Source of the DNA: Clostridia bacterium
GTDB taxonomy: Bacteria; Bacillota; Clostridia; UBA1212; UBA1255
Reading direction: 5' to 3'
Assembly: GCA_016287565.1 (NCBI GenBank)
Contig: JAEFAM010000020.1
Span: 1-32,929 of the forward strand
DNA: 32,929 nt
The notes beneath the pieces are model-generated. The model was not told where the DNA came from. It worked only from the letters and a program-made list of their open reading frames with translations, and ran no database searches. This document shows, piece by piece, positions 11,976 through 30,698 of this stretch (its first letter is position 1; each line of letters opens with the position of its first letter). Position numbers and translations under genes: made by a program.

Positions 11976-13142
11976 ATGAGCAGCGAAACGAACAATGTGC
12001 CGAGCGGCAAAATGTTTTTACATAAATGTCCAAACTGTAACGCCACCCTTGAATTCGATATCAGGAGCGGCAACGTGATCTGCAGCTATTGCGGCTCGAG
12101 CTACGACGTTGAAACTCTGCTTACAGAGAACGGAAGACCCGAACAGGGAACGGCTTCTCAGTCTTCTCAGGCGGCGCAAAATGCGCAGACGGCCCAGGAG
12201 AACGCGGACGCGCCTCTCAGGGAATTCGACTGGGGCGCCTACAAGAAGCATCTTAAAAGGGAAGACCTTTCCGGTACCAAGTCGTACTTGTGCCAGACCT
12301 GCGGCGCCGAAGTCATTCTTGACACCATAACGGCTTCCGCCCAGTGCCCATATTGCGGCAATTTCCTTATATTGACGGAGAACGTCATGGCGGGGCTCAG
12401 GCCTAACGGAATAATACCGTTCAAGATCCTGCCGGAGAAATTGTCCGACAGCGTAAAGAACTTTTATAAGAACAAGAAACTGCTGCCTTTCCACTTTTTC
12501 GACAAGAACAGGATGGAGAAGGTGAGAGGCCTTTACGTGCCTTTCTGGCTCTACGACTGCTCTTTGAGCGGCGGCATCACTTTCCTGGGTGACAAGGTCA
12601 GTTCTTTCAGAAGCGGAGACTATATCTGCACCGAGACCTCCGAATACAAGCTCTTCAGGTCCGGAGACATGACCTTCGCCAGGATACCCGTGGACGCCAG
12701 TATCAAGATGCCCAACGATCTGATGGACTCCATCGAGCCTTTCGATTATTCACAGCTCACCGAGTTCAACAGCGGCTACCTGACCGGATTCATCGCGGAC
12801 AGATTCGATTCCGATCCCGACGAGAACCTACCCAGAATGACCACCAGAGTGGGCAACAGCGCCGTTGAGATCCTGAGGCAGAACATACAGGGCTATTCCA
12901 ACGTGCGCGTTTCGGAAAACGGCCTTAATATGTCCGATTCCTCCGTCAAATACGTCATGCTGCCCGTGTACCTGTTCGACTGCACGTACGCCGGAAAGAC
13001 GTATCATTACGCGGCCAACGGCCAGACCGGTAAAGTGGTGGGAGAATTGCCCGTGAGCAAGGGCAAGAAGTGGCTGTACTTCGGCATCCCGTTCCTAATC
13101 GTGTTCGCGCTGATATTCGCGTTCCTGATGATGTTGTCCTGA
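11976..13142 (+). CDS. Zinc-ribbon membrane protein (TFIIB-type zinc ribbon family)
   Basis: 388 residues. Two zinc ribbons: C18/C21 with C36/C39 near the N-terminus, and a second CxxC...CPYCG pair around residues 107-128. Between them is a Gln/Ala-rich linker (about 58-75). The middle region, VRGLYVPFWLYDC to the VMLPVYLFDCTYAGKTYHY segment, is a conserved beta-rich domain of this family, and one transmembrane helix lies at about 368-386 near the C-terminus. The bulk of the protein therefore faces the cytoplasm. In many Clostridia this family sits beside a TPM-domain protein, as here (17 nt apart). The molecular role is unknown; membrane-protein quality control has been suggested for TPM partners but is inference here. 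GGGAGGTG precedes the ATG. A TATAAT at 11926-11931 without a clear -35 could be a weak promoter. Confidence 0.8.
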   Translation: MSSETNNVPSGKMFLHKCPNCNATLEFDIRSGNVICSYCGSSYDVETLLTENGRPEQGTASQSSQAAQNAQTAQENADAPLREFDWGAYKKHLKREDLSGTKSYLCQTCGAEVILDTITASAQCPYCGNFLILTENVMAGLRPNGIIPFKILPEKLSDSVKNFYKNKKLLPFHFFDKNRMEKVRGLYVPFWLYDCSLSGGITFLGDKVSSFRSGDYICTETSEYKLFRSGDMTFARIPVDASIKMPNDLMDSIEPFDYSQLTEFNSGYLTGFIADRFDSDPDENLPRMTTRVGNSAVEILRQNIQGYSNVRVSENGLNMSDSSVKYVMLPVYLFDCTYAGKTYHYAANGQTGKVVGELPVSKGKKWLYFGIPFLIVFALIFAFLMMLS

Positions 13143-13159
13143 AAGGCGGTGAGGAAGAT

Positions 13160-14026
13160 ATGAAAAACAAAAAGATCGCCGCAAGGCTCGTCATAGTGCT
13201 GTTTTCGATCTGCCTTCTGACCGCCGGGCTTGCCGTTACGGTCAGCGCCTATCCGGAATGGTACAGGTCGGATTTCACTTCTGACGATCTGTTCCACAAC
13301 GATCCTTCTACACCAAGGCTCATCGACAATGCCGGGATCCTTTCCGAGTCACAGTTCAGTTCGCTTTCCGATCAGCTTGCGCAGCTGAAAAGCAAGTTCG
13401 GTGCGGATTTCGTCGTGGTGACCGTGGATTCGCTGGAAGGACTGTATATTGAAGATTACGCCGCGGAATTTTACGATCAGAACGGATACGGCGTAGGGAA
13501 CAATTATTCCGGAGTAATCATGGTGGTGTCCTTCGAACCGGGCAACCGCCAGTGGTGGACTTTCGGCACCGGCGATTGTGAGAAATATTTTACCAAGGAC
13601 AACGTCAATACCATGGACGACGTTATGGAGCCCTATATGGTCGACGGGAACTACTACATGGGGATCAGCGAATATTTCAAAAAAGTAGACGTGCTGCTCA
13701 CCAACGGCAAATTCCCCAAGTCGTTTTCCGAGGTTTTCCGCTGCGTGATGTTTGCCGGGATCCCGGCGCTGATAGCGGGATTGATCTCCCTCGGCTCGGC
13801 CTCGGGTTCCATGAAGGCGGTCTCCACGGCCGTACAGGCTAATCAGTATCTGGTTCCCGAAAGGTCCAATATCGTCGGAAACGACGAGTTTATCAGGACT
13901 ACCATGACCAGGACGTACAGTCCTCCTTCGTCTTCATCCGGCCGCAGCGGAGGCGGTTCTTCCTACTCGGGAGGCCACCATTCATCCGGCGGCCACAGCT
14001 TCAGCGGAGGCGGCAGGCATTTCTGA
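13160..14026 (+). CDS. TPM-domain protein, secreted, with Gly/Ser/His-rich tail
   Basis: 288 residues from ATG 13160, chosen because GGTGAGGA lies 3-9 nt upstream; an earlier in-frame ATG at 13070 lies deep inside the previous gene. A signal peptide ends at VSA (about A30). The TPM domain (about 48-190) opens with LIDNAGILSE, contains KFGADFVVVTVDSLEG and ends around YFKKVDVLL. A hydrophobic segment at about 196-214 anchors it in the membrane, and the tail from 250 is rich in Ser, Gly and His (SGGHHSSGGHSFSGGG). TPM proteins include YgcG and Psb32-like proteins, with roles in membrane-protein repair or acid phosphatase activity in plants. The zinc-ribbon membrane protein upstream is its constant partner. 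Confidence 0.82.
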   Translation: MKNKKIAARLVIVLFSICLLTAGLAVTVSAYPEWYRSDFTSDDLFHNDPSTPRLIDNAGILSESQFSSLSDQLAQLKSKFGADFVVVTVDSLEGLYIEDYAAEFYDQNGYGVGNNYSGVIMVVSFEPGNRQWWTFGTGDCEKYFTKDNVNTMDDVMEPYMVDGNYYMGISEYFKKVDVLLTNGKFPKSFSEVFRCVMFAGIPALIAGLISLGSASGSMKAVSTAVQANQYLVPERSNIVGNDEFIRTTMTRTYSPPSSSSGRSGGGSSYSGGHHSSGGHSFSGGGRHF

Positions 14027-14045
14027 GGCCCCGATTTGAATTATG

Positions 14046-14064
14046 CGTTCCGCATGGCGGAACG
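14046..14064. other. Short hairpin in the gap after the TPM gene
   Basis: CGTTCCGC (14046-14053) and GCGGAACG (14057-14064) pair perfectly over 8 bp around a 3-nt loop. No U-run follows. The rest of the 190-nt gap (14027-14216) holds no gene; its other structure is the terminator at 14133-14185. Confidence 0.4.
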
Positions 14065-14132
14065 TGATGCGTCCTTCGAATATGATGCCTGGCTTTGCCA
14101 AATGATCTGCGCTTTGCGTATGGAGTTGCTGC

Positions 14133-14185
14133 AAAATAATACCGGCTGAGTTAAGTGATTTTCACTTTCTTCAGCCGGTATTTTT
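14133..14185. terminator. Bidirectional intrinsic terminator between convergent genes
   Basis: ATACCGGCTGA (14139-14149) pairs with TCAGCCGGTAT (14171-14181) over 11 bp. An inner AAGTGA/TCACTT stem fills the loop. On the plus strand TTTTT follows (14181-14185); on the minus strand the other flank reads ATTATTTTGC. It thus ends both the TPM transcript and the minus-strand lipid-kinase transcript. Confidence 0.9.
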
Positions 14186-14216
14186 GGCTTATTTTTGGTT
14201 ATGCTTTATTGACCCG

Positions 14217-15074
14217 TCAGAAATCTACGGTGTATTCCAGCACGTCCAGCACGGTCTCGCCGTCGATCTGCAGAGGAGACGGTTCGTTGAACTTAACGTT
14301 AACGTGCTTGCCCGTGATAACGGTAACGTTCTTATCGTGCTTGATATGTTCGCCTTTAAAAATGGAAGGGAAGATCATCAGCGTGTGGAGCCTGCTCTTG
14401 CCGTGCATTACCACTAAGGATACGGTCCTGTCTTCGCTGAGGCGGTCCTGGTTGGGAGCCGCGTTCATTCCGCCGCCGTAGAAGCGTCCCATCATAGTGG
14501 GAGCGATCCACACGTTCTTGAAACTGTAACTCTTGCCGTCCACGGTGATTTCCGCGATCTTGGACTTGAAATGGAACAGGAGGCCTTTAATGGCAATGGA
14601 AGTGTAGTTCACCGGTTTGTCGCTCCTGGCCTTCATTTCGTCGCCTACCTGGCAGCAATATCCGTCGATGCCGAATCCTATGCCATCGATGAATTTGTAC
14701 GTCCTGCCTTTAACTTCCACGGTGGGAAGGTCCTTCAGGTACTTGCTGATCTCGACAAGCCCTGCGGCGGGATCGTATCCGATGTCGCGGGCGAAATCGT
14801 TGCCGGTGCCGGCGGGGAAGTAATAAATCTCCCTTCCTGCGATCAGGTCTCCGGTGTCGTTGACGAACCTGTTGAGCGTTCCGTCTCCGCCGACCAATGT
14901 AAGCTTCGATCCTTCGGGAAGCTGCGCAAAGAAGTCACTGTAGGAAGCGATAGAAGTGATGTCGACGAATTCGGCTTCGCCCTTGTCCTTCAGGAACTCT
15001 TTAAGCGTGTTGACCGCATTGACCGCATTGGAAGAGCCTGAGAGCTTGTTGTAGAGAACTATGTACTTCTCCAT
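14217..15074 (-). CDS. Diacylglycerol/lipid kinase (DAGK catalytic domain)
   Basis: 285 residues. The catalytic loop GGDGT is at 62-66, followed by the family FPAGTGNDFARD motif at about 86-97. The C-terminal half is the beta-sandwich domain, with LQIDGE near the end as in DgkB/YegS-like kinases. These enzymes phosphorylate diacylglycerol or related lipids and recycle membrane lipid intermediates. There are no membrane segments; the protein is expected at the inner membrane face. It lies 17 nt downstream of the MutS-like gene on the same strand, whose stop codon runs straight into its AAAGGA site, so the two form an operon. The specific lipid substrate is not resolved. Confidence 0.87.
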   Translation of the reverse strand: MEKYIVLYNKLSGSSNAVNAVNTLKEFLKDKGEAEFVDITSIASYSDFFAQLPEGSKLTLVGGDGTLNRFVNDTGDLIAGREIYYFPAGTGNDFARDIGYDPAAGLVEISKYLKDLPTVEVKGRTYKFIDGIGFGIDGYCCQVGDEMKARSDKPVNYTSIAIKGLLFHFKSKIAEITVDGKSYSFKNVWIAPTMMGRFYGGGMNAAPNQDRLSEDRTVSLVVMHGKSRLHTLMIFPSIFKGEHIKHDKNVTVITGKHVNVKFNEPSPLQIDGETVLDVLEYTVDF

Positions 15075-15091
15075 AAGATTTCACGTTCCTT

Positions 15092-16840
15092 TCACTGAAT
15101 ATGGGCAGGATCATCGTTGCCCGAGAATTTTGTATCGTGGGTGTTCATAAGCTGGTCGAAACTGATGCCGTAGGTGCGGGCAATGTCAAGAGCGAAGCTC
15201 TTGCCCTGAGGCGGCATGGGCAATATCAGGTACGTTCTCTTGGATCCGGCGTATTTCTTGCGGCCTTCCTCCGTGAGCACTTCCATTTCGGTAGATTCGT
15301 CGACGCCTGCCACCAGGCTCACCAGGTCGCTCAGCGCCGGCTCCTTGTTGAGCTCCGGAATGTTCTCCGCCAGTTCGTGTATGTGGGTGGCGAAAACGCA
15401 GCGCGCGCCGACTTTGCGGAGGTATTTCATTATCTCTTCGGCAATGAACAGGCACTCCTGATGGCTGGTGCTGGAGAGCGACTCGTTCATCAGTATCATG
15501 CTGTATTTGGTGAGGCGCGGCAATATCTGCTCCAGGCGTATACATTCTTCTCCCAGCCTTCCTTCGCTGATGGAATTCTTCTCCAGCTCCGGGAAGTGGG
15601 TGTAGATGTTGTCAACGGGGCTTATCCTGCCTTCGGATCCGGGGATGGCGAAACCTGCCTGGTAGAGCAGCTGGGTGATGCCCACGGCTCTGGTGAAAGT
15701 GGTCTTGCCGCCCTGGTTGGCGCCGGTCAGTATGAAAATGCGACCGGCTTTGTCCGACATCTCCGCGTTGTTCAGCACCACCACGTTGGAAAGCTCGCTG
15801 AGGCCGATGTCGCTCTGGATCCTGATGGCAAAGCTGGCATCGTAAATGTCCTTGACGTAGAAGACTCTCTCGTCTTTCGGAGCGGGAGTGGGGAAGCACA
15901 CGGGCAAACCCGTTTTGATCAGGTTCCTCGCCAGCCTGCTGCCTCCGATGTAATAATAAACTTCGGGGATCAGGTCGAACAGGAACTGGGTCTCGATATA
16001 TTCGAACCGGGCAAGCACCGTTGCCAGATGCTTGAACGTGTCTCCCATGACGCTCTCAAGGTCGCGCATGATGGCAATGTCGAGAGTGTTGGCTCTGTTG
16101 TCCTTCAGGATCGAATAGAAGGAGCCGAGACCGAAATAAGTCTCGTCGTTCTTCTGGCGTCCCAGTATGGAAGTTACCAGCGCTTTGTTGCGGAAGGGCT
16201 TGGGCTCGATGGAAAGCAATACCGCCTCGATGGGGCGAAGTTCGTTGTCCAGATTAACGCCGATGGTGACGGAGGTCATCGTCTGGATCTTTTCAGAGAG
16301 GCTGGGAAGCTCGTGGCGCAGGTTGCGGTAATTGTCGCTGTCGTATATGCCGCTGATCATTTCCTGGAGCCGCTTCACGCCGGCGGAGAGGAAATCTCTG
16401 TCGGGAGAGCAGAACAGGGAATGGAGCACGTCTACGCACTGCATATACACTTCCAGCATATCGATGCGCCATGCGATGCGGCGCATATCGTCGTCGTGGG
16501 AAATGTTGGCCTTCTCCATCTTGCGGAGGTTGTTGGTGAGGGGCAGCAGCGTGGTGTCGAAAGACTCCTCAAGTTCGGGATAATCCATGAAATCCTGGAG
16601 TATATCCTGCCTGTATTTGATCACTTCTGCGTCCGGGATCATGTCCAGCATGCGCGCCCTGATGTAGGTGCGGCTGTCGTTCCTGATCTGCATGCCGTCC
16701 AGGATCATATCGAGGTTCATGTCACGCTCCAGCATGTCCTGGTTGAACAGCTTCCTGCGGCCGCTTTTCACCTCGCGCTCCGTGGCTCTGCCTCTTTCGT
16801 AATCCGGCCATAAAAGGCTGAATGCAAATTTTTCGTCCAT
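15092..16840 (-). CDS. MutS-family ATPase lacking the mismatch-binding domain
   Basis: 582 residues from ATG at 16838-16840, chosen because GAGGA lies about 6 nt upstream; an upstream ATG at 16859-16861 has no ribosome site and would sit only a few bases from the predicted transcription start. The C-terminal half is a MutS domain V: Walker A GANQGGKT at about 372, a LMNESLSSTSHQE segment with Walker B/D-loop features, and FATHIHELAENIP with the usual ATPase histidine. The N-terminal half is helical, like the lever/clamp region. The mismatch-recognition Phe-x-Glu domain of MutS1 and the Smr nuclease domain of MutS2 are both absent. Such short MutS homologs occur in Firmicutes and their DNA substrate is mostly unknown. 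Confidence 0.82.
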   Translation of the reverse strand: MDEKFAFSLLWPDYERGRATEREVKSGRRKLFNQDMLERDMNLDMILDGMQIRNDSRTYIRARMLDMIPDAEVIKYRQDILQDFMDYPELEESFDTTLLPLTNNLRKMEKANISHDDDMRRIAWRIDMLEVYMQCVDVLHSLFCSPDRDFLSAGVKRLQEMISGIYDSDNYRNLRHELPSLSEKIQTMTSVTIGVNLDNELRPIEAVLLSIEPKPFRNKALVTSILGRQKNDETYFGLGSFYSILKDNRANTLDIAIMRDLESVMGDTFKHLATVLARFEYIETQFLFDLIPEVYYYIGGSRLARNLIKTGLPVCFPTPAPKDERVFYVKDIYDASFAIRIQSDIGLSELSNVVVLNNAEMSDKAGRIFILTGANQGGKTTFTRAVGITQLLYQAGFAIPGSEGRISPVDNIYTHFPELEKNSISEGRLGEECIRLEQILPRLTKYSMILMNESLSSTSHQECLFIAEEIMKYLRKVGARCVFATHIHELAENIPELNKEPALSDLVSLVAGVDESTEMEVLTEEGRKKYAGSKRTYLILPMPPQGKSFALDIARTYGISFDQLMNTHDTKFSGNDDPAHIQ

Positions 16841-16872
16841 AGCGGATCCTCGCTTCGTCATTGATTATGACG

Positions 16873-16901
16873 ATTATACCATCTTCTCTTAAAATTGACA
16901 A
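16873..16901 (-). promoter_or_regulatory. Predicted promoter of the MutS-like/lipid-kinase operon
   Basis: On the minus strand: TTGTCA (16901-16896), a 17-nt spacer and TATAAT (16878-16873), preceded by TGG as an extended -10. Transcription should begin near 16866. Its -35 box is the complement of the glgB -35 box shifted by one base. Confidence 0.8.
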
Positions 16902-16923
16902 TAATCGGTGAAAGTGTTATTAT
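16895..16923 (+). promoter_or_regulatory. Predicted glgB operon promoter
   Basis: A perfect TTGACA at 16895-16900, a 17-nt spacer and TATTAT at 16918-16923. Transcription should begin near 16930, leaving a leader of about 100 nt before glgB. Its -35 bases overlap those of the divergent minus-strand promoter. Confidence 0.75.
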
Positions 16924-16935
16924 TGGCTCAGCGCT

Positions 16936-16947
16936 TTCGGATCCGAA
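16936..16947. promoter_or_regulatory. 12-bp palindrome just after the glgB start site
   Basis: TTCGGATCCGAA is a perfect palindrome about 6-17 bases after the predicted transcription start. GCG (16931-16933) and CGC (16951-16953) flank it and TTTTTT follows at 16955-16960. It could be an operator or a weak early terminator in the leader. Confidence 0.4.
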
Positions 16948-17031
16948 TATCGCATTTTTTAACGGCAATGTGGCTTCGAAGCAGTTTCGTATTATTTTTT
17001 GGCGAAAGGCGGTCGGCAGGGCGGATAAGCT

Positions 17032-19002
17032 ATGTTTTCCGATGCTTATTTAGAAGAACGGTTCGTAAACGGAGAACTATTTGACGCTTATAATTATTTC
17101 GGGAATCACAGGATAAGCCGCGGCGACGGGAACGATGCCGTGGACGGTGTGCTGTTTCGCGTTTTTGCGCCCAACGCCGGGAGCGTAAGAGTTGCCGGAG
17201 ATTTTAACGGCTGGGGAAATGACTGCGTTGACGGAGACATGCGTTCCGGCCTTATGGCCAGGTCCGACAGGGGCGTCTGGGAGGCATTCGTGCCCGGACG
17301 GATCGAGGGATCGCTGTACAAATACGAGATCACGGACAGGTCCGGAAATGTATTTTTTAAAAACGACCCCTTTGCCATCTCCGCCGAGTTGAGGCCCGGC
17401 ACCGCTTCCGTCGTCTGCGACATTCCGGACCGTCAATGGCAGGACGGGGACTGGCTGTCGCGCCGTGCTTCCGAAAATAAATACGAAAAGCCGGTCAATA
17501 TATATGAGCTCCATCTGGGTTCCTGGCGTCGCGGCAATATTCCCGGAATCGACTATAAAGAAAACTGGCAGGAGGCGGAGCGCAGGAAGAGCGAAGAACC
17601 GTTCCTGAACTACCGCGAGATAGCGGATCAGTTGTCCGTGTATCTGTCCTCGATGCACTATACCCACGTGGAGCTTATGCCCGTGTGCGAACATCCTCTC
17701 GACGGCTCCTGGGGTTACCAGACCGGCAGTTATTATGCGTTGACCTCCCGGTTCGGAACGCCGGAAGACTTTATGTATTTCGTCGACCGGATGCACACCT
17801 GCGGAATAGGCGTCATAATGGACTGGGTGCCGGGCCACTTCTGCAGGGACGTATCCTGGCTGTACCGTTTCGACGGGTCATATCTTTATGAGTATGAGCA
17901 GGAGAACAAGCGGGAAAATCCGCTCTGGGGCACGGCCAATTTCGATTATTCCAGGCCATGGTCCATGAATTTCATGGTCTCCAACGCGGTCTACTGGCTG
18001 AAAGAATACCATCTGGACGGTCTTCGCATCGACGCGGTGGCCAATATCATATATTTCGACTACAACGAGATGCATCCCGTAAGGCCCCGGAACGGGTACG
18101 GCGGGTTCGAGAATATAGAGGGGATACGCTTCCTCAAAAACGTGAATACCGCTGTACACCAGCTGTGCCCCGGAGCCGTCACCGTGGCTGAAGATTCCAG
18201 CACCTATCCGGGTATGACAGGTAAAGTTTCCGACGGCGGCGTGGGTTTCGATTTCAAGTGGAATATGGGCTGGATGAACGATACGCTTAAATATATGAGC
18301 GAATCTCCACAGAAACGGCATTCGGACCACAACAAGATGAATTTCGCCATGATGTACGCCCATACGGAGCGCTTTTTGCTGAGCCTCTCCCACGACGAAT
18401 CCGTGCACGGCAAAAAGACGTTGCTGGACAAGATGTACGGGAACCTGGAAGACAAATTCGCCCAGTTCAGATCGTTCCTGCTCTATATGATCTGCCATCC
18501 CGGCAAGAAGCTTTTGTTTATGGGCTCCGAGTTCGGCCAGATCATGGAATGGCGCTATTACGAGTCGCTGGAATGGAAGATGCTGCTGTATCCGCCCCAC
18601 GGGCTTCTGCACGAATACGTAAAGGCCCTGAACGGCTTCTATCTCGGTGAGAGGGCGCTGTATGCGGGAGACTATTCAGGCGGCGGATTCAGGTGGATCG
18701 ACGCGGACGACAGCAAAAGGAGCGTATATTCATTCGTGCGCTCGGATCCCGCGGACGACAGGAACTTCCTGGTGGTGGTATGCAACTTTTCGCCCGAGAC
18801 TTACAGGGATCTGCCGGTGGGAGTGCCTCGTTTTTGCGACTATAAGACTGTATTCGAATCATATGAGAGAGAAGACGAAGATCCCGTCGCTTCGGAGCTC
18901 GTCAGGCCTTCTCCCGAAGGGGCCGGAAGCTGTCCGTTCAGGATAAAGACGGACATAAAGGGTTACGGGGCAAAGATATTGAAGCCTGTTTTCAGGTTTT
19001 AG
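17032..19002 (+). CDS. glgB: 1,4-alpha-glucan branching enzyme
   Basis: 656 residues. It cuts alpha-1,4 chains and re-attaches them as alpha-1,6 branches on glycogen. The N-terminal CBM48-type domain is seen in VAGDFNGWGND (about 55-65). The GH13 core carries DGLRIDAV with nucleophile D334, VAEDSS with acid/base E387, SLSHDESVHGK with D455, and MGSEFGQ afterwards. The C-terminal beta domain ends at 656. There is no signal peptide, so it is cytosolic. It is the first gene of the glycogen operon, with a weak GGGCGGA ribosome site. A 128-nt gap with 12-bp repeats separates it from glgC, so output of glgB and of the later genes may differ. Confidence 0.95.
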   Translation: MFSDAYLEERFVNGELFDAYNYFGNHRISRGDGNDAVDGVLFRVFAPNAGSVRVAGDFNGWGNDCVDGDMRSGLMARSDRGVWEAFVPGRIEGSLYKYEITDRSGNVFFKNDPFAISAELRPGTASVVCDIPDRQWQDGDWLSRRASENKYEKPVNIYELHLGSWRRGNIPGIDYKENWQEAERRKSEEPFLNYREIADQLSVYLSSMHYTHVELMPVCEHPLDGSWGYQTGSYYALTSRFGTPEDFMYFVDRMHTCGIGVIMDWVPGHFCRDVSWLYRFDGSYLYEYEQENKRENPLWGTANFDYSRPWSMNFMVSNAVYWLKEYHLDGLRIDAVANIIYFDYNEMHPVRPRNGYGGFENIEGIRFLKNVNTAVHQLCPGAVTVAEDSSTYPGMTGKVSDGGVGFDFKWNMGWMNDTLKYMSESPQKRHSDHNKMNFAMMYAHTERFLLSLSHDESVHGKKTLLDKMYGNLEDKFAQFRSFLLYMICHPGKKLLFMGSEFGQIMEWRYYESLEWKMLLYPPHGLLHEYVKALNGFYLGERALYAGDYSGGGFRWIDADDSKRSVYSFVRSDPADDRNFLVVVCNFSPETYRDLPVGVPRFCDYKTVFESYEREDEDPVASELVRPSPEGAGSCPFRIKTDIKGYGAKILKPVFRF

Positions 19003-19011
19003 CCATAAAGG

Positions 19012-19071
19012 AACGGTAAAAGCAACGTTAAAAGTAACGTTAAAAGTAACGGTAACGATAACGAAAAAACG
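19012..19071 (+). repeat. Five 12-bp tandem repeats between glgB and glgC
   Basis: Units start at 19012, 19024, 19036, 19048 and 19060. Units 2 and 3 are identical (AACGTTAAAAGT) and the others differ by 1-5 bases. AACGTT is self-complementary, so neighbouring units can pair as small hairpins. The gap also holds a CCGCC/GGCGG stem at 19084-19099. Function is unknown; possible roles are a protein-binding array, an mRNA-stability element or a slippage-prone spacer. Confidence 0.75.
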
Positions 19072-19130
19072 ATCATCTCGTCTCCGCCGGAAGCGGCGGG
19101 ACAATGAATAAACAAAGGAGTGACCGGAAA

Positions 19131-20276
19131 ATGATTCACAAGAATATGGTGGCGCTGATATTGGCGGGAGGCCAGGGAAGCAGGCTGGGGGCAATGACGA
19201 AAAAAGTTGCCAAGCCCGCCGTGCCTTTCGGCGGAAAGTACCGCATCATCGACTTCGCGCTCAGCAACTGTTCCAATTCCGGAATAGACACGGTGGGAAT
19301 ATTGACCCAGTACCGGCCCCAGCAGCTGTCGACCCATATCGGGATCGGAACGCCCTGGGACCTGGACCGTATCCACGGAGGCGTGTCCATATTGCCCCCG
19401 TATATGAGCGAGGCCGGAGGCGACTGGTACCGCGGCACCGCCAACGCCGTGTATCAGAATCTGGGATTCCTTGACCAGTACGATCCTTCCTACGTGCTGA
19501 TATTGTCCGGCGACCACATATACAAGATGGACTACCGGAAGATGCTGTCGGAGCACATCGAGAAAAAGGCGGAGGCCACTATCGCGGTCATTGACGTGCC
19601 TTTAAGTGAAGCTTCCAGGTTCGGCATCATGAACACGGACGACGAGGGCAGGATCGTCAGTTTCGAAGAGAAGCCCGCGAAGCCCAAGAGCACGCTGGCG
19701 TCCATGGGAATATACATTTTCTCATACGCCAACCTTAAAAAGTTTCTGTCCCAGGACGCCAACGATCCGGATTCGGACAACGATTTCGGCAAGAACATAA
19801 TCCCGGCAATGATCGCATCCGGCCAGAAGCTGATCGCGTACAGGTTCGACGGCTACTGGAAAGACGTGGGGACCGTTCAGAGCTACTGGGAGGCCAATAT
19901 GGACCTTCTGAAGGCGGACAACGATGTCAAACTTTTCCAGAGCGACTGGAAACTCTATACGGAGACCGGTTCCATACCGTCCCAGTACATCGGGCCCGAC
20001 GCGGAACTCAAGGACAGCATTATTTCCGAGGGCTGCGTCATAGAGGGGCAGGTGGATCATTCGGTCATATTCCCGGGCGTGTATATCGGAAAGGACAGCC
20101 GGGTGGTGGATTCCATCGTGATGGCAGACTGCAGGATCGAGGAAAACGTCATCGTAAACAAGAGCATTCTGCTGGAAGGCGTGACCGTAAAGTCCAGCAA
20201 CGCGGTGGGAGACGGAAAAGAGATCGCCGTAATAGACGAGGGCAAGGTATTGTCCGGCGGCGGATTTATGGACTGA
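19131..20276 (+). CDS. glgC: Glucose-1-phosphate adenylyltransferase
   Basis: 381 residues from ATG 19131, chosen because AAAGGAG (19114-19120) lies upstream; ATG 19104 is in frame but precedes that site. It makes ADP-glucose from ATP and glucose-1-phosphate, the committed step of glycogen synthesis. The nucleotide loop [10 protein letters not shown] (11-20) is intact, followed by [34 protein letters not shown] and the sugar-phosphate region [11 protein letters not shown] left-handed beta-helix of hexapeptide repeats fills the C-terminus. GlgD follows 13 nt downstream. In related bacteria the GlgC/GlgD pair forms a heterotetramer whose allosteric control differs from GlgC alone; that is family knowledge and not visible here. 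Confidence 0.95.
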
Positions 20277-20289
20277 GAGGTGCGGCAAT

Positions 20290-21405
20290 ATGAAAGATTA
20301 CATGGCAATACTCAATCTGGCTGAAAACGAGAACAACATCCGTTCTCTTACCACCAACCGCCCCATAGCGTCGATACCCATCGGCAGCAGGTACAGGGTC
20401 ATCGACTTTATGCTGTCCAATCTGGTCAACGCCGGCATCGGCAACGTGGGCATCTTCACGGAGAGCAACTCCCGCTCTCTGGCGGACCATCTGGGCACCG
20501 GCAAGCCCTGGGATCTCAACCGGAAGAACGACGGCCTTTTCCTGTTCAATCATGGCCTGTGCAACCTGATGTATACCGATTCCAAGCTCATAAAGAACAA
20601 TATGGAATACATCTACAGGAGCAAGAGTAAAGACGTTATCCTCTGCTCCTCGTATATGGTGTGCAATATGGATTTCGCGGCAGTTGCCAGGGCTCACGAG
20701 GCCTCCGGCGCCGATATTACCGTGGTGTATACTCATACCGAGAAAGCCGACACGGAATTCTCCGACTGCTTTACCCTCGACGTGGATCCGGAGACCGGAA
20801 AGCTCAGGGGAGCCGGGAAGAACGTAGGCATCGGGAAAGTGGCTGACGTGTGCATGGAGATCTTCCTGATGCCCAAAAAGCTGCTTACAGACTTCATATA
20901 CAAGAGCACTTCGCTCACGTCTCTTTCCAACTTCTACAACCTGATATTCGACCAGATCGGGAACCTCAAGTTCAACACCTACAGATTCGACGGCTTCGTG
21001 TCCTGCATAAATACGGTCTCCTCCTATTTCAAGAGCAATATGGACATGCTGGATATCGGCGTCAGTTCCGAGCTTTTCAGATCAGTGGAGCGGCCCATAT
21101 TCACGAAGATCAAGGACGAGCCTCCCACGCTGTACGTAAAAGGGTGCAGTGTGTGCAACGCGCTGATCGCCGACGGCTGCAGGATAGAAGGCACGGTGAA
21201 AGACTCGGTGCTGGGCAGATACGTTGACGTGGAGAAGGGCGCGGTAGTGGAAAACAGCATAATCCTGCAGAACGTGAGGGTTCATAAGAACGCCAGATTG
21301 TCCCATGTTATTATTGACAAAAACGTGGATATAGACGAAAATACAGAGCTGAAGGGAAGCGAGTATTTCCCTCTGGTCATTGAAAAGAGAAATCTTCTTC
21401 GCTGA
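20290..21405 (+). CDS. glgD: GlgD, non-catalytic ADP-glucose pyrophosphorylase subunit
   Basis: 371 residues. The fold matches GlgC, seen in SIPIGSRYRVIDFMLSNLVN and the hexapeptide C-terminus (NSIILQNVRVHKNARL), but the GGQGSRL nucleotide loop is replaced by a NENNIRSL region. It is therefore the GlgD subunit, which modulates GlgC instead of catalysing the reaction. GAGAGGTG at 20275-20282 overlaps the glgC stop region and precedes ATG 20290 by 7 nt, giving near-coupled translation. Its presence with glgC is characteristic of Bacillota. Confidence 0.93.
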   Translation: MKDYMAILNLAENENNIRSLTTNRPIASIPIGSRYRVIDFMLSNLVNAGIGNVGIFTESNSRSLADHLGTGKPWDLNRKNDGLFLFNHGLCNLMYTDSKLIKNNMEYIYRSKSKDVILCSSYMVCNMDFAAVARAHEASGADITVVYTHTEKADTEFSDCFTLDVDPETGKLRGAGKNVGIGKVADVCMEIFLMPKKLLTDFIYKSTSLTSLSNFYNLIFDQIGNLKFNTYRFDGFVSCINTVSSYFKSNMDMLDIGVSSELFRSVERPIFTKIKDEPPTLYVKGCSVCNALIADGCRIEGTVKDSVLGRYVDVEKGAVVENSIILQNVRVHKNARLSHVIIDKNVDIDENTELKGSEYFPLVIEKRNLLR

Positions 21406-21438
21406 CGTTTTCGATTCTTTTCAGAAAGGATTTTTTAA

Positions 21439-22872
21439 ATGAAGGTTTTATTTGTTACCACTGAGGTAAGACCTTTCAGCAAAACAGGCGGTCTGGCCGA
21501 CGTTTCTCTGGAGCTCCCGAGAGCCCTGAAGAAAGCCGGCATCGACGTCCGCATAATCACTCCTGAATACAGCGACATACCTTACGTGTTCAGATCCTCC
21601 ATGATACCCCTTTCTACGTTCGGCGTGACGGTGGGATGGAGGAACCAGTATTGCGGCCTGAAATATATGCTCTACGACGATCTGCCGGTATATTTCATCG
21701 ACAACGAATATTATTTCAAGCGGCCGGGGTGCTACGGATTTTACGACGACGGAGAGCGTTTTGCCTATTTCTGCAGGGCGGTCATGGAGTCCGTTGTCCA
21801 TATGGACGATTTCTACCCGGACGTGATCCACTGCAACGACTGGCAGACGGGCATAATCCCGCTGTACCTCAGGGACGTTTATTATCAGCGCCCCGAATTC
21901 AAGAGAGCGGCTTCCATTTTCACGATCCATAATCTGAAATATCAGGGCGTGTTCGCGCCTTCCGTGCTGGAGGATCTGCTGGGCCTGAACTACGGCTACT
22001 ACAACGACGAGAAGCTTAAATTCAGAGACGGCGTTTCGTTTATGAAAGCGGGAATCGTTTTTGCGGACAAGGTAGTCACGGTTTCCGAGACATACGCCCG
22101 TGAGATCACCACGCCTTATTACGGCGAGGGCCTGGACGGGCTTCTGAACGCCAAGGCTTTCAAGCTTTCCGGCATAACCAACGGCATAGACTATACGCAC
22201 AACAATCCCGAAAACGACAGGAACATAAAGCTGAACTACGACGTTGCCACCAGGGAGAGGAAGAAGGACAATAAGCTTGCCCTCCAGAAAGAGCTGGGCC
22301 TTCCTCAGAACGCAGACGTGCCCGTTATCGCCATGGTCACGAGGCTGGTCAAGGAAAAGGGCATCGACCTGGTCACCTGCGTAATGGAGGACATCCTTAA
22401 GAACGATCTTCAGTTCGTGATGCTGGGCACCGGCGACAGGGACTATATGGATTTCTTCGAATATTACGCTTCCGCCTATCCCGGAAAGATTGCCGCCGTG
22501 ACCCGTTTCGACGGTGCGCTGGCTTCCAGGATATACGCCGGAGCCGATATTTTCCTGATGCCTTCAATGTTCGAGCCCTGCGGCCTGTCTCAGATAATCG
22601 CCATGAGATACGGCACCGTGCCCGTTGTCCGGGAGACCGGAGGCCTCAAAGATACCGTAAAGCCATACAACCAGTATACCGGTCACGGCAACGGCTTCTC
22701 CTTCGCGAATTTCAACGCCCACGAGATGCTGGGCGCATTGAGATACGCTCTTGAAAAGTATAAAGATCACGAGATCTGGGACAACATCGTGCTGGAGGCC
22801 ATGAACACCCGCATCGATTGGGAGACCCAGTCTAAGAAGTATATCGACTTATATAACGAGATAGCTATCTGA
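21439..22872 (+). CDS. glgA: Glycogen synthase (ADP-glucose dependent, GT5)
   Basis: 477 residues, the usual length for bacterial GlgA. It adds glucose from ADP-glucose to the non-reducing end of alpha-1,4 glucan. The ADP-glucose motif KTGGLADV begins at K15, HCNDWQTG lies at about 131-138, and the C-terminal GT-B domain has FEPCGLSQIIAMRYG and RETGGLKDTV. AAAGGA precedes the ATG. It is the fourth gene of the operon and 71 nt upstream of glgP. Confidence 0.95.
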   Translation: MKVLFVTTEVRPFSKTGGLADVSLELPRALKKAGIDVRIITPEYSDIPYVFRSSMIPLSTFGVTVGWRNQYCGLKYMLYDDLPVYFIDNEYYFKRPGCYGFYDDGERFAYFCRAVMESVVHMDDFYPDVIHCNDWQTGIIPLYLRDVYYQRPEFKRAASIFTIHNLKYQGVFAPSVLEDLLGLNYGYYNDEKLKFRDGVSFMKAGIVFADKVVTVSETYAREITTPYYGEGLDGLLNAKAFKLSGITNGIDYTHNNPENDRNIKLNYDVATRERKKDNKLALQKELGLPQNADVPVIAMVTRLVKEKGIDLVTCVMEDILKNDLQFVMLGTGDRDYMDFFEYYASAYPGKIAAVTRFDGALASRIYAGADIFLMPSMFEPCGLSQIIAMRYGTVPVVRETGGLKDTVKPYNQYTGHGNGFSFANFNAHEMLGALRYALEKYKDHEIWDNIVLEAMNTRIDWETQSKKYIDLYNEIAI

Positions 22873-22881
22873 CAATCCCGC

Positions 22882-22921
22882 GCCTCGCCAGGCCGGGTCT
22901 GCCGGCTGCGCGCTTCGAGGC
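22882..22921 (+). other. Two-tier GC-rich hairpin between glgA and glgP
   Basis: Outer arms GCCTCG (22882-22887) and CGAGGC (22916-22921); inner arms GCCGG (22892-22896) and CCGGC (22902-22906). No U-tract follows. It may be an mRNA processing or stability element inside the operon. AGGAGG lies after it, just before the glgP start. Confidence 0.4.
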
Positions 22922-22943
22922 CGCCTCACCGTCAGGAGGATTT

Positions 22944-25367
22944 ATGCAACTTGATAAAGAAGCTTTTATAAGGGATTATAAAAGCAAGATCGTGACTATG
23001 TTCAGGGAGAGTTTCGACGAAGCTTCTCCCGAGGAAAGATATCTGGCCTTGGGAGCCCTGATAAGAGATTATCTTGCCCCGGACTGGCTGTTTACGGAAA
23101 AATTAGATTCTTTAAAAGATAAAAAACACGTTTATTATTTCTCCATGGAATTCCTCATCGGCAGGCTGCTGGATTCGGCGCTGATCAATATGGGGATAAG
23201 GGACGTTGTCCGGGAAGGTATGGCCGAACTGGGCATGAACGTTTCCGATATAGAGTCTCACGAGCCCGACGCGGGCCTGGGCAACGGTGGCCTCGGACGC
23301 CTGGCCGCCTGTTTCATCGATTCCATGGCCTCTTTAGGCATCTCAGGCACCGGCATCGGCATAAGATACCGCTACGGACTGTTCCGCCAGCTTATCCAGA
23401 ACGGCTACCAGGTGGAGACGCCGGACAACTGGCTCAAGATCCCCAACGTGTGGGAGATCTGCAAGACCGAGGACGCCAGGATCGTCAGGTTCGGCGGCAC
23501 CGTCAATACGCGGTGGGAAGGCGACGGGCGGCTCTACGTGGAACTTACGGATTACGAACCGGTCCTGGCGGTGCCTTACGACATCCCGGTTCCGGGATAC
23601 GGCAACGGCCGTGTGAACACGCTGCGCCTCTGGAGCGCAGAGACCGAAAATTCCGGTTTCGACTTTAAGGAATTCAGCAAGGGCGACTACGACCGTGCGG
23701 TGGAGAACATCACAACGGCCCATTCCATATCCAACGTGCTCTATCCCGACGATTCCACTCCCAGGGGCAAGCTGCTGCGCCTGAAGCAGGAATATTTCTT
23801 CACCAGCGCCGGGCTTCAGGACATACTTGCCCGATACTTAAAGAGCGGCGGCAGCGTGCACGATTTCCACAAGTTCAACGCCATACAGATCAACGACACC
23901 CATCCGGCTCTGGCCATTCCGGAGCTTATGCGGCTGCTCATCGACGAGCAGGGGCTGGGCTGGGACGAAGCCTGGAACATCACCGTTGCCACCTTCGGCT
24001 ATACGAACCACACCATATTGGCGGAAGCGCTGGAAAAGTGGCCTCTCGATATGTTCAGGAAGCTGCTGCCCAGGGTGTATATGATCATCGAGGAGATCAA
24101 CCGCAGGTTCGTGGGAGAGCTTTCTTCCGCGCCCGACAACTCTTTCCGAAAGATCAGCCGCATGTCCGTCATCGCGGAGGGCAGCGTCAGGATGGCGAAC
24201 CTGGCCATCGTGGGCAGCCACAGCGTAAACGGCGTGGCGTACCTGCACACGGAGATATTGAAGAATAAGGAACTTAAGGATTTCCACGAATATTATCCCG
24301 GGAAGTTCAACAACAAGACCAACGGCATCACCCACAGGAGGTGGCTCATAGGGGCCAATCCCGGATTGACCGCGCTCATCGACCGGACCATCGGTACGGA
24401 CTGGCGGATGGAGCCGTCGGGGCTGGCGGGATTGAGAGAATATATTGACGCCGGTTTCGCCGCCGAGGCCGCGGAAGTGAAGCGCTGCAACAAAGCCAGG
24501 CTCGCGGCTTATATGAAAGAGGCGGTGAATATTGCCCCGGATCCGGATTCGCTGTTCGATATACAGGTGAAGCGCCTTCATATGTACAAGAGGCAGCTGC
24601 TGAACATCTTCGGCGTTATGGATATGTACAACAGGATCAAGTCCGGGAAGACTCAGGGCATGAGTCCCAGGACCGTGATCTTTTCCGCGAAGGCGTTTCC
24701 CGGGTACGGGCTTGCCAAAAACACCATCAAGCTTATCTGCACCGTTGCCGACAAGGTGAATTCGGATCCCCAGGCTTCTGACCTCCTGAAAGTCGTGTTT
24801 ATGCCCAACTACGACGTGAGCCTTGCGGAGATACTCATTCCCGCGGGCGAGATCAGCGAGCAGATATCTACCGCTTCTAAAGAGGCTTCGGGCACGGGCA
24901 ATATGAAATTTATGATGAACGGCGCCGTGACGCTGGCTACGCTGGACGGTGCCAACGTGGAGATCCGCGAGGCGGTGGGCGACGACAATATCGTGCTTTT
25001 CGGTATGAATTCCGACGAAGTCATCGCTTACGAGAACCGGGGCGGTTACGATCCGAACGCTTTTGCCGCTTCCGACGACAGGATCGCGCTGATCCTCTCT
25101 CAGCTTCGCAATGGCTATTTCGGTACGGCGTCCAAAGACGAGTTCCGGCCCGTGATCGACCATCTGCTGCGGGACGGCGACCCTTATTTCGTGCTCAAGG
25201 ATTTCGATTCTTACGTTAAGGCCAGGGACTTTACCTCTTCGCTCTTTGCGGACAAGGAGAGATTCTCCCGGATGTGCGCCGTCAATATCGCCATGTCCGG
25301 CCGTTTTTCCAGCGACAATACGATCCGCGCCTATGCGGACGATATCTGGAGCGTTGATCACAGATGA
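22944..25367 (+). CDS. glgP: Glycogen phosphorylase
   Basis: 807 residues. It releases glucose-1-phosphate from glycogen ends using a pyridoxal-phosphate cofactor. The PLP site EASGTGNMKF is present with the cofactor lysine at about K655, and upstream blocks YYFSMEFLIGRLL, PDAGLGNGGLGRLAACF and KFNAIQINDTHPAL are standard. The clear AGGAGG site gives start 22944. Its stop overlaps the next start as ATGA, so the GH13 gene is translationally coupled to it. This gives the operon both synthesis and breakdown enzymes. Confidence 0.96.
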   Translation: MQLDKEAFIRDYKSKIVTMFRESFDEASPEERYLALGALIRDYLAPDWLFTEKLDSLKDKKHVYYFSMEFLIGRLLDSALINMGIRDVVREGMAELGMNVSDIESHEPDAGLGNGGLGRLAACFIDSMASLGISGTGIGIRYRYGLFRQLIQNGYQVETPDNWLKIPNVWEICKTEDARIVRFGGTVNTRWEGDGRLYVELTDYEPVLAVPYDIPVPGYGNGRVNTLRLWSAETENSGFDFKEFSKGDYDRAVENITTAHSISNVLYPDDSTPRGKLLRLKQEYFFTSAGLQDILARYLKSGGSVHDFHKFNAIQINDTHPALAIPELMRLLIDEQGLGWDEAWNITVATFGYTNHTILAEALEKWPLDMFRKLLPRVYMIIEEINRRFVGELSSAPDNSFRKISRMSVIAEGSVRMANLAIVGSHSVNGVAYLHTEILKNKELKDFHEYYPGKFNNKTNGITHRRWLIGANPGLTALIDRTIGTDWRMEPSGLAGLREYIDAGFAAEAAEVKRCNKARLAAYMKEAVNIAPDPDSLFDIQVKRLHMYKRQLLNIFGVMDMYNRIKSGKTQGMSPRTVIFSAKAFPGYGLAKNTIKLICTVADKVNSDPQASDLLKVVFMPNYDVSLAEILIPAGEISEQISTASKEASGTGNMKFMMNGAVTLATLDGANVEIREAVGDDNIVLFGMNSDEVIAYENRGGYDPNAFAASDDRIALILSQLRNGYFGTASKDEFRPVIDHLLRDGDPYFVLKDFDSYVKARDFTSSLFADKERFSRMCAVNIAMSGRFSSDNTIRAYADDIWSVDHR

Positions 25368-27166
25368 TCTTTTCGCATGACCCCAGGGACAGCTTTTTCC
25401 GGGATCCTCCTTCCGCCGTGACGGTGGGGAGGGAGGTGACGCTGACCGTTTGCGTTTCGGACTTTACTGGCCGTGGCTGCGAAAGCGAATGCGGAGGCGG
25501 AGGCGGAGGTTTTGAACCGGCGGAAGGTGATATTGCCCTGCGCCTCGTACGGAAGTTCCGTGACGAGGTGGACGAGCTTGATTTGAGTCCTGCGGAAATA
25601 TGCTTCGACCCGGAAAACGATCGCATCGTTCTGCGTTTCGTTGTCGGAGGAGACGTGCTCGCAAGACCCGGCGTGTATTTTTACAGCGTTAAGGCGGGAG
25701 ACGAGGAGAGCCCCGAACTTGGCAGGATCACGGTCACAGACCGGAAGAGCAAAGTTCCGGACTGGTTCAAGGATACGGTCATTTATCAGATCTTCCCGGA
25801 CCGGTTCGCGGTGGGTGAGGACAGCCGGGTCGTTTTGAAGCATAATTCTTTTATGTACGCCACCAGGGATGATCGGCCTCTATACGTCAAGGACGACACG
25901 GGAGAGGTCATTCGCTGGGACTTTTTCGGCGGGAATCTCAAAGGCGTCCTGGACCGCATCGGTTACATCAAGCGGCTGGGCGCCGGGACCGTTTATTTAA
26001 ATCCCATATTCGAATCCGTTTCAAATCACAGGTACGACACGGGAGATTACGAACACGTTGACGGACTGCTGGGGGGCGACGGCGCCTTCCGGGACCTGGC
26101 GTCAGGGCTTTCGGAAAACGGAATGAGGCTTATCCTTGACGGCGTGTTCAGCCATACAGGCAGGGAGAGCAGGTATTTCAGGGCAGCGAAAGCCGGCGTC
26201 GAGCCTTACGTTAACTGGTATATTATCAGGGACGACGGCACTTACGAATGCTGGTGGGACGTGGACGACCTGCCCTGCGTCAACGAGACAGAACCGTCGT
26301 ATTTCGATTATACGGTCAAAGGGCCTGACAGCATCGTCAGGCGCTGGCTCAGGGCCGGAGCGTCGGGCTGGAGGCTCGACGTGGCGGACGAACTTCCGGA
26401 CGAGTACATCGAGGCCATCCGGGAGGCCGCTTCAGAGGCCAGGCCGGATTCGGTGATCATCGGCGAGGTTTGGGAGGACGGCACCGACAAGACGAGCTAC
26501 GGCGTTCACCGTTCGTATTATACGAAAGCCGAGCTTGATTCCCAGACCAATTATCCTTTCAGGAAAAGGCTTCTGGATTTCTTTTCCGGAAAAGCCGGTT
26601 CAGATGAGATCTCCGGAATGTTTTCGATGGATACGGTCAACTACCCCCGGGATATTTATTATTCGCTGGTCAATATGACAGGTTCCCACGACGTTCCCAG
26701 GCTGTTTTCCTGCCTTAAGGAGATCGCCCGGGGAAGCGGTGCGCTGGCAAAAGGGCTTTTAAAGGCCTATTCTCTGATCCAGTTCGCGTTTCCCGGCGTT
26801 CCGCTGATATATTACGGCGACGAAACGTGCATGGAAGGGGGACCCGACCCGGACAACCGCCGGTTCTTTACCGAAAAAAGTGATTCGGTAGATATCGTTT
26901 CCTGGTTTTCGGAGCTGGCGGCAATGCGGCGGGACGAGGCCGTTTTCAGGAGCGGCGGCATTCGGTTTATCGACACGGGCGACGTCAACGTGTTTGCTTT
27001 TTGCCGTTTCGACGGCGGCCGGGAAATGATTTGCGCCGTGGACCGGTTCGGCAGGGGCCCCGGATTCATTGCCGGAACTGTTGAAAAATCCGCCGGAATG
27101 AAGTATAATGTTAAAAAACAGGCTGACGGTTACGGTTTACTGCTTGAAAAAGCAGCCGGTAACTGA
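25364..27166 (+). CDS. Cytosolic GH13 alpha-amylase/neopullulanase-like enzyme
   Basis: 600 residues. A beta-sandwich N-domain (1 to about 125) precedes a GH13 barrel beginning DWFKDTVIYQIFPDRF. Catalytic residues are seen: nucleophile D339 in GWRLDVADE, acid/base E368 in IIGEVWED, and transition-state D443 in GSHDVPR (Val where Thr is common). CWWDVDDLPCVNETEP is typical of the neopullulanase/maltogenic group. There is no signal peptide, so it acts inside the cell, probably on maltodextrins or branched limit dextrins from GlgP. No glgX-type debranching gene or malQ is nearby, so it may fill that role (inference). An odd run of six glycines occurs near residue 45, from a GCGGAG repeat. The 3' end contains the nrdR promoter. 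Confidence 0.85.
   Translation: MIFSHDPRDSFFRDPPSAVTVGREVTLTVCVSDFTGRGCESECGGGGGGFEPAEGDIALRLVRKFRDEVDELDLSPAEICFDPENDRIVLRFVVGGDVLARPGVYFYSVKAGDEESPELGRITVTDRKSKVPDWFKDTVIYQIFPDRFAVGEDSRVVLKHNSFMYATRDDRPLYVKDDTGEVIRWDFFGGNLKGVLDRIGYIKRLGAGTVYLNPIFESVSNHRYDTGDYEHVDGLLGGDGAFRDLASGLSENGMRLILDGVFSHTGRESRYFRAAKAGVEPYVNWYIIRDDGTYECWWDVDDLPCVNETEPSYFDYTVKGPDSIVRRWLRAGASGWRLDVADELPDEYIEAIREAASEARPDSVIIGEVWEDGTDKTSYGVHRSYYTKAELDSQTNYPFRKRLLDFFSGKAGSDEISGMFSMDTVNYPRDIYYSLVNMTGSHDVPRLFSCLKEIARGSGALAKGLLKAYSLIQFAFPGVPLIYYGDETCMEGGPDPDNRRFFTEKSDSVDIVSWFSELAAMRRDEAVFRSGGIRFIDTGDVNVFAFCRFDGGREMICAVDRFGRGPGFIAGTVEKSAGMKYNVKKQADGYGLLLEKAAGN
25491..25508 (+). repeat. In-frame GCGGAG triplet repeat coding oligoglycine
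   Basis: Three exact copies of GCGGAG at 25491, 25497 and 25503 encode most of a six-glycine run in the N-domain loop of the GH13 enzyme. Six bases per unit keep the frame whatever the copy number. Confidence 0.6.
27081..27109 (+). promoter_or_regulatory. Predicted nrdR promoter inside the GH13 gene
   Basis: TTGAAA at 27081-27086, a 17-nt spacer and a perfect TATAAT at 27104-27109. The start should be near 27117, 70 nt before nrdR. It lies within the last 30 codons of the upstream gene. Confidence 0.7.
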
Positions 27167-27186
27167 TTTTGTACGGAGTTGCGTTT

Positions 27187-27657
27187 ATGAGATGCCCTTA
27201 CTGTTCACATACGGAAGATAAAGTTATCGATTCCAGACCCGCCGAAGATTTCGCGGCCGTCCGGAGAAGAAGAGAATGCCTTAAATGCGGTTCCCGCTTT
27301 ACTACTTATGAGAAGATCGAAGATACCCAGCTCATGGTAGTGAAAAAGGACGGCAGCAGGCAGCTTTTCGACAGGGACAAGATCACCAACTGCATCATGA
27401 AGGCCTGCGCCAAGAGGCCGGTCTCCATTATGCAGGCAGAAAGTATTTCCGCGGAAGTGGAGCAGCAGCTTCTGAACTCCATGAAACGCGAAGTCAGTTC
27501 CCAGGAGATCGGCGAACTTATAATGGCCAGGCTCAAGGAACTGGACGAAGTCGCTTACGTGCGTTTCGCTTCCGTTTACAAGCAGTTCAAGGACGTGGAC
27601 TCCTTTATGGAGGAACTCAAGGCTATGATAGACGTAAAGGATAAAAAGTCCGTCTGA
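27187..27657 (+). CDS. nrdR: Transcriptional repressor NrdR
   Basis: 156 residues from ATG 27187, the usual MRCPYC start; a TTG at 27169 in frame lacks support, while GGAG at 27174-27177 suits the ATG. A zinc ribbon with C3, C6, C31 and C34 is followed by an ATP-cone (about 48-138). NrdR senses dATP/ATP and represses ribonucleotide reductase genes by binding NrdR boxes. No nrd gene is in the window. It lies downstream of the glycogen operon, with its own promoter and a terminator after it, so it can be expressed alone or by read-through. Confidence 0.95.
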   Translation: MRCPYCSHTEDKVIDSRPAEDFAAVRRRRECLKCGSRFTTYEKIEDTQLMVVKKDGSRQLFDRDKITNCIMKACAKRPVSIMQAESISAEVEQQLLNSMKREVSSQEIGELIMARLKELDEVAYVRFASVYKQFKDVDSFMEELKAMIDVKDKKSV

Positions 27658-27700
27658 TCCTTTCGCTTCCTGATCCGTTTGACTGATACCAGATATGCGC

Positions 27701-27729
27701 GGTCCGGCTTTTTGGCCGGATCTTTTTTT
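27701..27729 (+). terminator. Rho-independent terminator after nrdR
   Basis: An 8-bp stem (27701-27708 with 27715-27722, one G-U pair) around a TTTTTG loop, followed by seven T. It ends the glg-nrdR transcripts. Confidence 0.92.
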
Positions 27730-27795
27730 GTGAAAACGCGTCTGCGGCCGAGGAGTCCGGCGTGCGTTCCGCCTTGATTTCGCTTTCGGGAAAAG

Positions 27796-27883
27796 CCGGG
27801 AAATAACCGTAAATTTACGAAAATTCCCATAATAAAACGTGATCGGGCCGGAAATATATTTCCCGGGAAATATCCGGGAAATA
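27796..27883 (+). repeat. CCGGGAAATA repeats and palindromes before yifB
   Basis: CCGGGAAATA occurs exactly at 27796-27805, 27863-27872 and 27874-27883, with a one-base-shorter copy at 27848-27856. The zone also contains three perfect palindromes: CGTAAATTTACG (27808-27819), GGAAATATATTTCC (27850-27863) and an 18-bp one at 27856-27873. No open frame of note lies in 27658-27999. Confidence 0.7.
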
Positions 27884-27897
27884 CGGCGTTTTTTTTT
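27847..27897 (+). terminator. Second terminator-like hairpin, with alternative pairings
   Basis: TATTTCCCGG (27857-27866) pairs with CCGGGAAATA (27874-27883). Below it GCCG (27847-27850) pairs with CGGC (27884-27887), with a six-base bulge between the two stems. One G and then nine T follow (27889-27897). The same bases can instead form GGAAA-TATA-TTTCC (27850-27863), which would break this stem. It is either a second terminator, the end of a short RNA, or an attenuator. Confidence 0.6.
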
Positions 27898-27925
27898 GCT
27901 TTCCTGCCGCCTGCTGCCGTATCAT
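27896..27925 (+). promoter_or_regulatory. Possible yifB promoter
   Basis: TTGCTT at 27896-27901, an 18-nt spacer and TATCAT at 27920-27925. It starts at the end of the T-run of the second terminator. The match is moderate. Confidence 0.4.
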
Positions 27926-30691: not shown

Positions 30692-30698
30692 ATTTCGC

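Follow-up and report, generated by a model that had tools for sequence, protein, structure and literature searches.

The glycogen operon and a gene for a MutS-like ATPase in a Clostridia bacterium are predicted to be transcribed divergently from two promoters that have a single -35 element in common. The DNA analysed here, referred to below as the window, is a stretch of 32,929 bp, a single contig from an assembly of 143 contigs and 2.65 Mb. The locus is quite probably a compact divergent pair of housekeeping-sigma-type promoters that provides for joint expression of the two units rather than for a bistable toggle, and the glg block was probably inserted at a later time.

Organization of the locus

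The leftward unit, on the minus strand, would consist of the gene for the MutS-like ATPase (15092-16840) and a gene for a YegS/DAGK-type lipid kinase (14217-15074) located 17 bp downstream of it. The lipid kinase gene follows the MutS-like gene in all seven genomes of the genus, and searches at the cut-offs applied did not find it at the MutS-like loci from other genera. The MutS-like reading frame is open up to an ATG at 16861, but translation most likely starts at 16840, as all seven genus genomes have the sequence MDEKFAFSL there. Rightward transcription, on the plus strand, would begin with glgB (17032-19002), the first gene of the glycogen operon, and continue through glgC, glgD, glgA and the genes for glycogen phosphorylase and a GH13 amylase-family protein (19104-27166). 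It perhaps extends to nrdR (27169-27657), which encodes a repressor-type zinc ribbon and an ATP cone, starts 2 bp past the amylase-family gene and is possibly the last gene of the glg unit. The plus-strand region from 27169 to 32905 carries nrdR followed by a Mg-chelatase-domain gene, which we take to be ComM-like, and DprA and topoisomerase I-like genes, and the glycogen genes are thus embedded in a run of DNA-metabolism genes.

A -35 element read in both directions

The heptamer TTGACAA at 16895-16901 reads TTGACA on the plus strand and TTGTCA on the minus strand. The plus promoter, which would serve the glg genes, consists of TTGACA (16895-16900), a 17-bp spacer and TATTAT (16918-16923), and the minus promoter, which would serve the MutS-like gene, consists of TTGTCA (16901-16896), a 17-bp spacer and TATAAT (16878-16873). 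In both promoters a TG lies one base ahead of the -10 hexamer, giving the extended -10 elements TGTTATTAT on the plus strand (16915-16923) and TGGTATAAT on the minus strand (16873-16881). Each promoter matches the consensus at 11 of 12 positions, with the minus -35 accounting for five of its six, and the two are the top two matches in a consensus scan of 12000-22000. Each strand therefore has the -35/-10 pair at a spacing of 16 to 18 bp that is expected of a sigma-70-type promoter. The original prediction that TTGACAA forms a -35 element on both strands is borne out exactly by the sequence and by the scan, as are the two 17-bp spacers to TATTAT and TATAAT, and the heptamer is confirmed as the -35 element for predicted promoters in both directions.

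One 7-bp element could serve polymerases in both directions because the -35 consensus is close to its own reverse complement (TTG-A-CAA versus TTG-T-CAA). Transcription is predicted to start near 16930 on the plus strand and near 16866 on the minus strand, about 64 bp apart. With the minus start placed from the position of the -10 hexamer and translation beginning at 16840, the MutS-like transcript would have a leader of about 25 nt. Both promoters are expected to be active, and the geometry of the pair lends support to the earlier proposal that polymerases at the shared -35 exclude one another, such that a single polymerase would occupy the site at any time. The outcome would be joint expression at a roughly fixed ratio with, at most, competitive damping of one promoter by the other.

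Conservation in relatives

Alignment of the intergenic region in relatives, which had been proposed as a check on the original prediction, shows the shared -35 to be kept in 7 of 11 divergent loci and both 17-bp spacers in five of the seven genus genomes. The exact shared pattern occurs in those five genomes, counting the window's own; at the orthologous locus, all 19 pattern positions are matched in four of the six other genomes. A gap-free alignment of the five exact loci covers 51 bp. Their 19/19 identity is partly built in because the loci were found by the pattern, but the TG extensions lie outside the pattern, and hence are independent of it, and both are invariant in the five loci. Also invariant are a G beside the minus -10 and the triplets AAA, ahead of the -35, and AAG, ahead of the plus TG. 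The 28 spacer positions outside the elements and the TGs have a mean identity of 53% in the five loci, with eight positions invariant, and the 30-bp flanks have identities of 40% and 27%.

The -35 elements are split in the remaining 4 of the 11 divergent loci, where they stand 10 to 35 bp apart: 32 bp in G003 and 10 bp in G005, both from the genus, and 26 and 35 bp in G009 and G010 from a sister genus. In two of the five sister-genus genomes, G007 and G011, the -35 is shared and the minus spacer is 18 bp long. Regardless of how the -35s are arranged, all 11 divergent loci have a plus promoter matching at 11 of 12 positions and a minus promoter matching at 9 to 11 of 12 with the TG. In G004 the shared pair precedes glgC, and a search for glgB at E <= 1e-80 gave no match; either the first gene was lost while its promoter persisted, or the assembly lacks glgB.

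In a tree built from the DNA of the MutS-like gene, G003 and G005, the pair with split -35s, fall within genomes that share the -35, and G006, which shares it, is basal (these forks are starred); the protein tree gives no firm order for the deeper forks. Since the basal genome has the shared element and the split pair is nested, parsimony suggests that the genus began with a shared -35 and that a single loss followed.

Joint expression or a switch

The original prediction had the two units expressed as a toggle-like pair, and this part is not supported. A toggle also requires mutual feedback, and regulators in both units that would repress each other were not found: the only regulator found in the two units by Pfam is nrdR, which lies on the right side after the glg block, and the Pfam scan found no regulator in the leftward unit of MutS-like and lipid kinase genes. 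The shared -35 appears dispensable, since 4 of the 11 divergent loci hold both promoters with split -35s, and two genomes of the family have the genes in tandem. The window has no match to the NrdR box consensus at three mismatches or fewer, against 0.53 expected, and it has four matches to a CcpA-type cre consensus with one mismatch, against 3.83 expected, none of them in the intergenic region. A search of 16700-17200 for known RNAs gave only a match to snoR126, which was sub-threshold at 20.7 bits against a gathering score of 39. A dedicated toggle is rejected as the main reading based on the split -35s, the tandem layouts, the finding of nrdR as sole regulator and the lack of NrdR-box-like sites.

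Some competition between the two promoters is plausible given that both look strong, and two near-consensus extended -10 promoters could give anticorrelated output. There is a small chance that competition goes further and acts as a switch, in which strong binding in one direction silences the other so that the glycogen and the MutS-like/lipid-kinase units alternate. The near-consensus promoters and their shared -35, exact in five of the seven genus genomes and present with an 18-bp spacer in two of the five sister-genus genomes, are what such a switch would need, and a regulator gene, nrdR, closes the rightward block. The separated -35s, the tandem genomes and the lack of intergenic cre-like sites and of NrdR-box-like sites in the window nevertheless argue against a switch. 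Work on E. coli promoters with a common -10 element bears on both sides of the question. In that study (PMC12825309), strong activation in one direction repressed the other, as a switch would have it, but at their basal level all five promoters tested were too weakly active to compete, and noise fell. Joint expression from a compact promoter pair is the reading retained for the locus.

Relation to known bidirectional promoters

The locus belongs, as judged from its predicted elements, to the known class of overlapping divergent promoters, in this case a sigma-70-type pair with a shared and conserved core element, and it is a well conserved member of that class. It resembles the shared -10 bidirectional promoters described by Warman, Grainger and colleagues in that near-symmetry of a core element would allow transcription both ways and two polymerases could not bind simultaneously (PMC12825309 and PMC10268837). 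Starts in that class are 7 to 25 bp apart, most often 18 bp, according to PMC10268837. Unlike those promoters, the present pair shares the -35, has separate -10 elements and has predicted starts about 64 bp apart. Membership in the shared -10 class was rejected since the -10 hexamers occupy separate positions (16873-16878 and 16918-16923).

The E. coli fepA-fes promoters, termed overlapping in PMC4469952, are likewise two sigma-70-type promoters facing apart over the same DNA. They differ from the present pair, in which promoters that both have 17-bp spacers overlap by an entire -35 hexamer and no operator is known. No direct precedent for a shared -35 was found in the largely open-access literature searched, PMC11661796 included, and nothing joining MutS and glgB was found in the same material. 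The locus is a natural and conserved case in which to examine sharing through the -35 instead of the -10, and relatives with the same two promoters 10 to 35 bp apart allow a comparison of shared and split pairs that would gauge the effect of sharing.

The MutS-like protein

The original prediction described the MutS-like protein as a DNA-repair-type ATPase, a description that its profile scores do not sustain. The protein scores 75.4 bits against a cut-off of 480 and 65 bits against a cut-off of 641.7 for MutS, 50.4 bits against 400 for MutS2 and 64.7 bits against 300 for KamC. Its sole Pfam match at E <= 0.001 is MutS_V, and the mismatch-binding domain I was not found. The Walker B motif of MutS1 has DE followed by IGRGT. 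A further MutS-type protein encoded in the window's genome (L014) has LDEIGRGT, whereas the corresponding sequence in the MutS-like protein is LMNESLSSTS, with NE instead of DE. The N and E are invariant across the 14 MutS-like sequences of the family and occur in all six sampled loci of the order's other families as well as in the class-level relatives L098-L101; a second G078 protein, in L102, has no Walker B match among those listed. The protein therefore resembles MutS1, MutS2 and KamC in possessing the MutS domain V ATPase core, but differs from them in scoring far below all curated cut-offs, in that domain V was the only domain found and in its NE Walker B. Identity with each of the three was rejected for these reasons, and the protein is, by these profiles and motifs, not a canonical mismatch-repair MutS.

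Within the genus, the MutS-like proteins are 92-95% identical to that of the window, compared with 53-64% for GlgB and 83-86% for GlgC. The nearest named records (92-95% identical) come from metagenome-assembled genomes (MAGs) including Mageeibacillus sp. UBA1255, and other nearest records are 'Clostridia bacterium' MAGs from yak and water-buffalo rumen and 'uncultured Ruminococcus'. Across the class, a match at E <= 1e-60 was found in 11 of 245 genomes, eight of which belong to this order. The predicted structure has a mean pLDDT of 43.9. The MutS-like protein is best regarded as a well-conserved, uncharacterised putative ATPase, for which a role in DNA metabolism is possible given its neighbours nrdR, dprA and topA. 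The genome has two more stretches weakly similar to the protein (L025 and L031; G000:C34:6170-8358). In six of the seven genus genomes the two stretches fall inside about 2.2 kb, and in G004 they are on two contigs.

Origin of the pairing with glycogen genes

The MutS-like gene is encoded by 14 of the 16 family genomes searched, and is divergent from the glg genes in 11 of these, in tandem with them in two and apart from them in one. The expectation that relatives would keep the genes divergent and the hexamer in place thus stands for the most part, failing in the two tandem genomes and, for the common hexamer, in the four divergent loci with split -35s. In the tandem genomes (G014 and G015) the MutS-like gene immediately precedes glgB and is read in the same direction, an order that is no proof of co-transcription. 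The named loci matching these genomes, from another genus, are L082 (9989-21712) and L084 (2387-14100), in which the MutS-like gene, glgBCDAP, the amylase gene and nrdR are all on one strand. In the remaining genome, G008, the MutS-like gene has a different neighbour, with neither glg genes nor nrdR found around it, and the glgB match is on another contig. The nrdR gene follows the amylase gene in all 10 family loci that cover DNA past the amylase gene, a count that took in the window, G001, G002, G004, G006, G007, G009, G011, L082 and L084 and left out G003, G005 and G010.

Beyond the family, the MutS-like gene is encoded by 12 of the 15 other genomes searched in the order, and no glg gene was found within the 0.9-1.5 kb per side covered at these 12 loci. 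In three of the 12, both loci of family f3 and one of family f6, nrdR is divergent from the MutS-like gene at a distance of 0.4-0.5 kb in f3 and about 0.15 kb in f6; no nrdR was found in the flanks of any of the nine MutS-like loci of family f5. The three loci from the two other families are L061 (1501-3825), L059 (578-3222) and L060 (665-3219), with no glg genes between the divergent pair. The f3 minus promoters have a TG-extended TATAAT 17 bp from TTGATT. The f3/f6 genomes branch beside the window's family in the tree; searches for glgB at E <= 1e-80 gave no match in G017 and G018, and in G030 one on another contig.

We infer that the mutS-like gene and nrdR formed an older divergent pair between which the glg block was later placed; the evidence for this older pairing consists of three loci. 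The mutS-like side would have retained its promoter and the other side would have gained the glg promoter. Alternatively, the glg block was lost in f3/f6, which would give the same picture. Since the block was likely inserted secondarily, adjacency to the glycogen genes is by itself no evidence of joint function. The link between glycogen storage and a MutS-like ATPase, which had been put forward as unexpected, is real as an adjacency but has a plainer history through nrdR, which is divergent from the MutS-like gene without glg genes in 3 of 12 loci, and the partnership looks largely historical. A fuller reading, in which the MutS-type ATPase and nrdR are an old divergent pair in DNA and nucleotide metabolism, the glycogen block was captured between them and the shared -35, kept in most of the genus, couples expression of DNA maintenance to that of carbon storage and nrdR at a fixed ratio set by polymerase competition, is unlikely as a whole. 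The locus does draw attention to an uncharacterised MutS-type ATPase that accompanies nrdR and that, in one family, neighbours glycogen genes despite changes in gene orientation.

Frequency of the pattern

Among 100,000 dinucleotide shuffles of 16840-17031, none yielded a pair with a common -35 in which each promoter reached at least 11 of 12 (at 5/6 per hexamer and spacers of 16 to 18 bp), and 175 yielded at least one plus-strand promoter of 11/12. With the threshold lowered to at least 10 of 12, the real window has one shared pair and 40 window shuffles have none. The 19-position pattern has one occurrence in the 2.65-Mb assembly. In the seven genus genomes, which have 310 perfect TTGACA-17-TATWAT sites in total, the pattern is found at 23 distinct places when up to two mismatches are allowed and, with none allowed, solely at this locus in five genomes. 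Across the class, the exact pattern (with either -10 being TATAAT or TATTAT) has 30 matches in 28 of 245 genomes. The reversed pattern, used as a control in the genus and class scans, has no matches in the same 245 genomes, a control that is lenient because genomes are rich in true promoters. The exact arrangement is rare in the class, though not unique.

A longer common motif, TATTGACAATnnnCnATAnATAGnGTATAAT, is found at 5 of the 30 exact class sites (L117, L130, L131, L122 and L124), which come from two class families (f34 and f16), and is perhaps one conserved operator or promoter type. It could be taken, together with the AAA before the -35 and the AAG before the plus TG that are invariant in five genus genomes, to mean that the AAATTGACAA core is chiefly an operator for a common regulator and that the promoter match is partly a by-product. 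Such an operator is very unlikely, as the invariant positions are mostly promoter elements at canonical spacing (partly by selection) and the split relatives keep both promoters without a common core. It is hardly credible that one promoter is used and the other coincidental, for even though any TTGACAA yields a 5/6 -35 on the opposite strand owing to the symmetry that relates TTGACA and TTGTCA, both extended -10s and their spacers are retained in relatives and no shuffle reproduced the pair.

In G022 the exact pattern is flanked by a GntR-like/ABC-transporter unit on one side and a lipoprotein-like gene on the other, both named by eye. A second shared -35 site in the genus, with one mismatch, is present in G006 (L049 1501-1551; G006:C31:5398-5448), where it separates aldose-epimerase-like and membrane-protein-like genes, both also named by eye.
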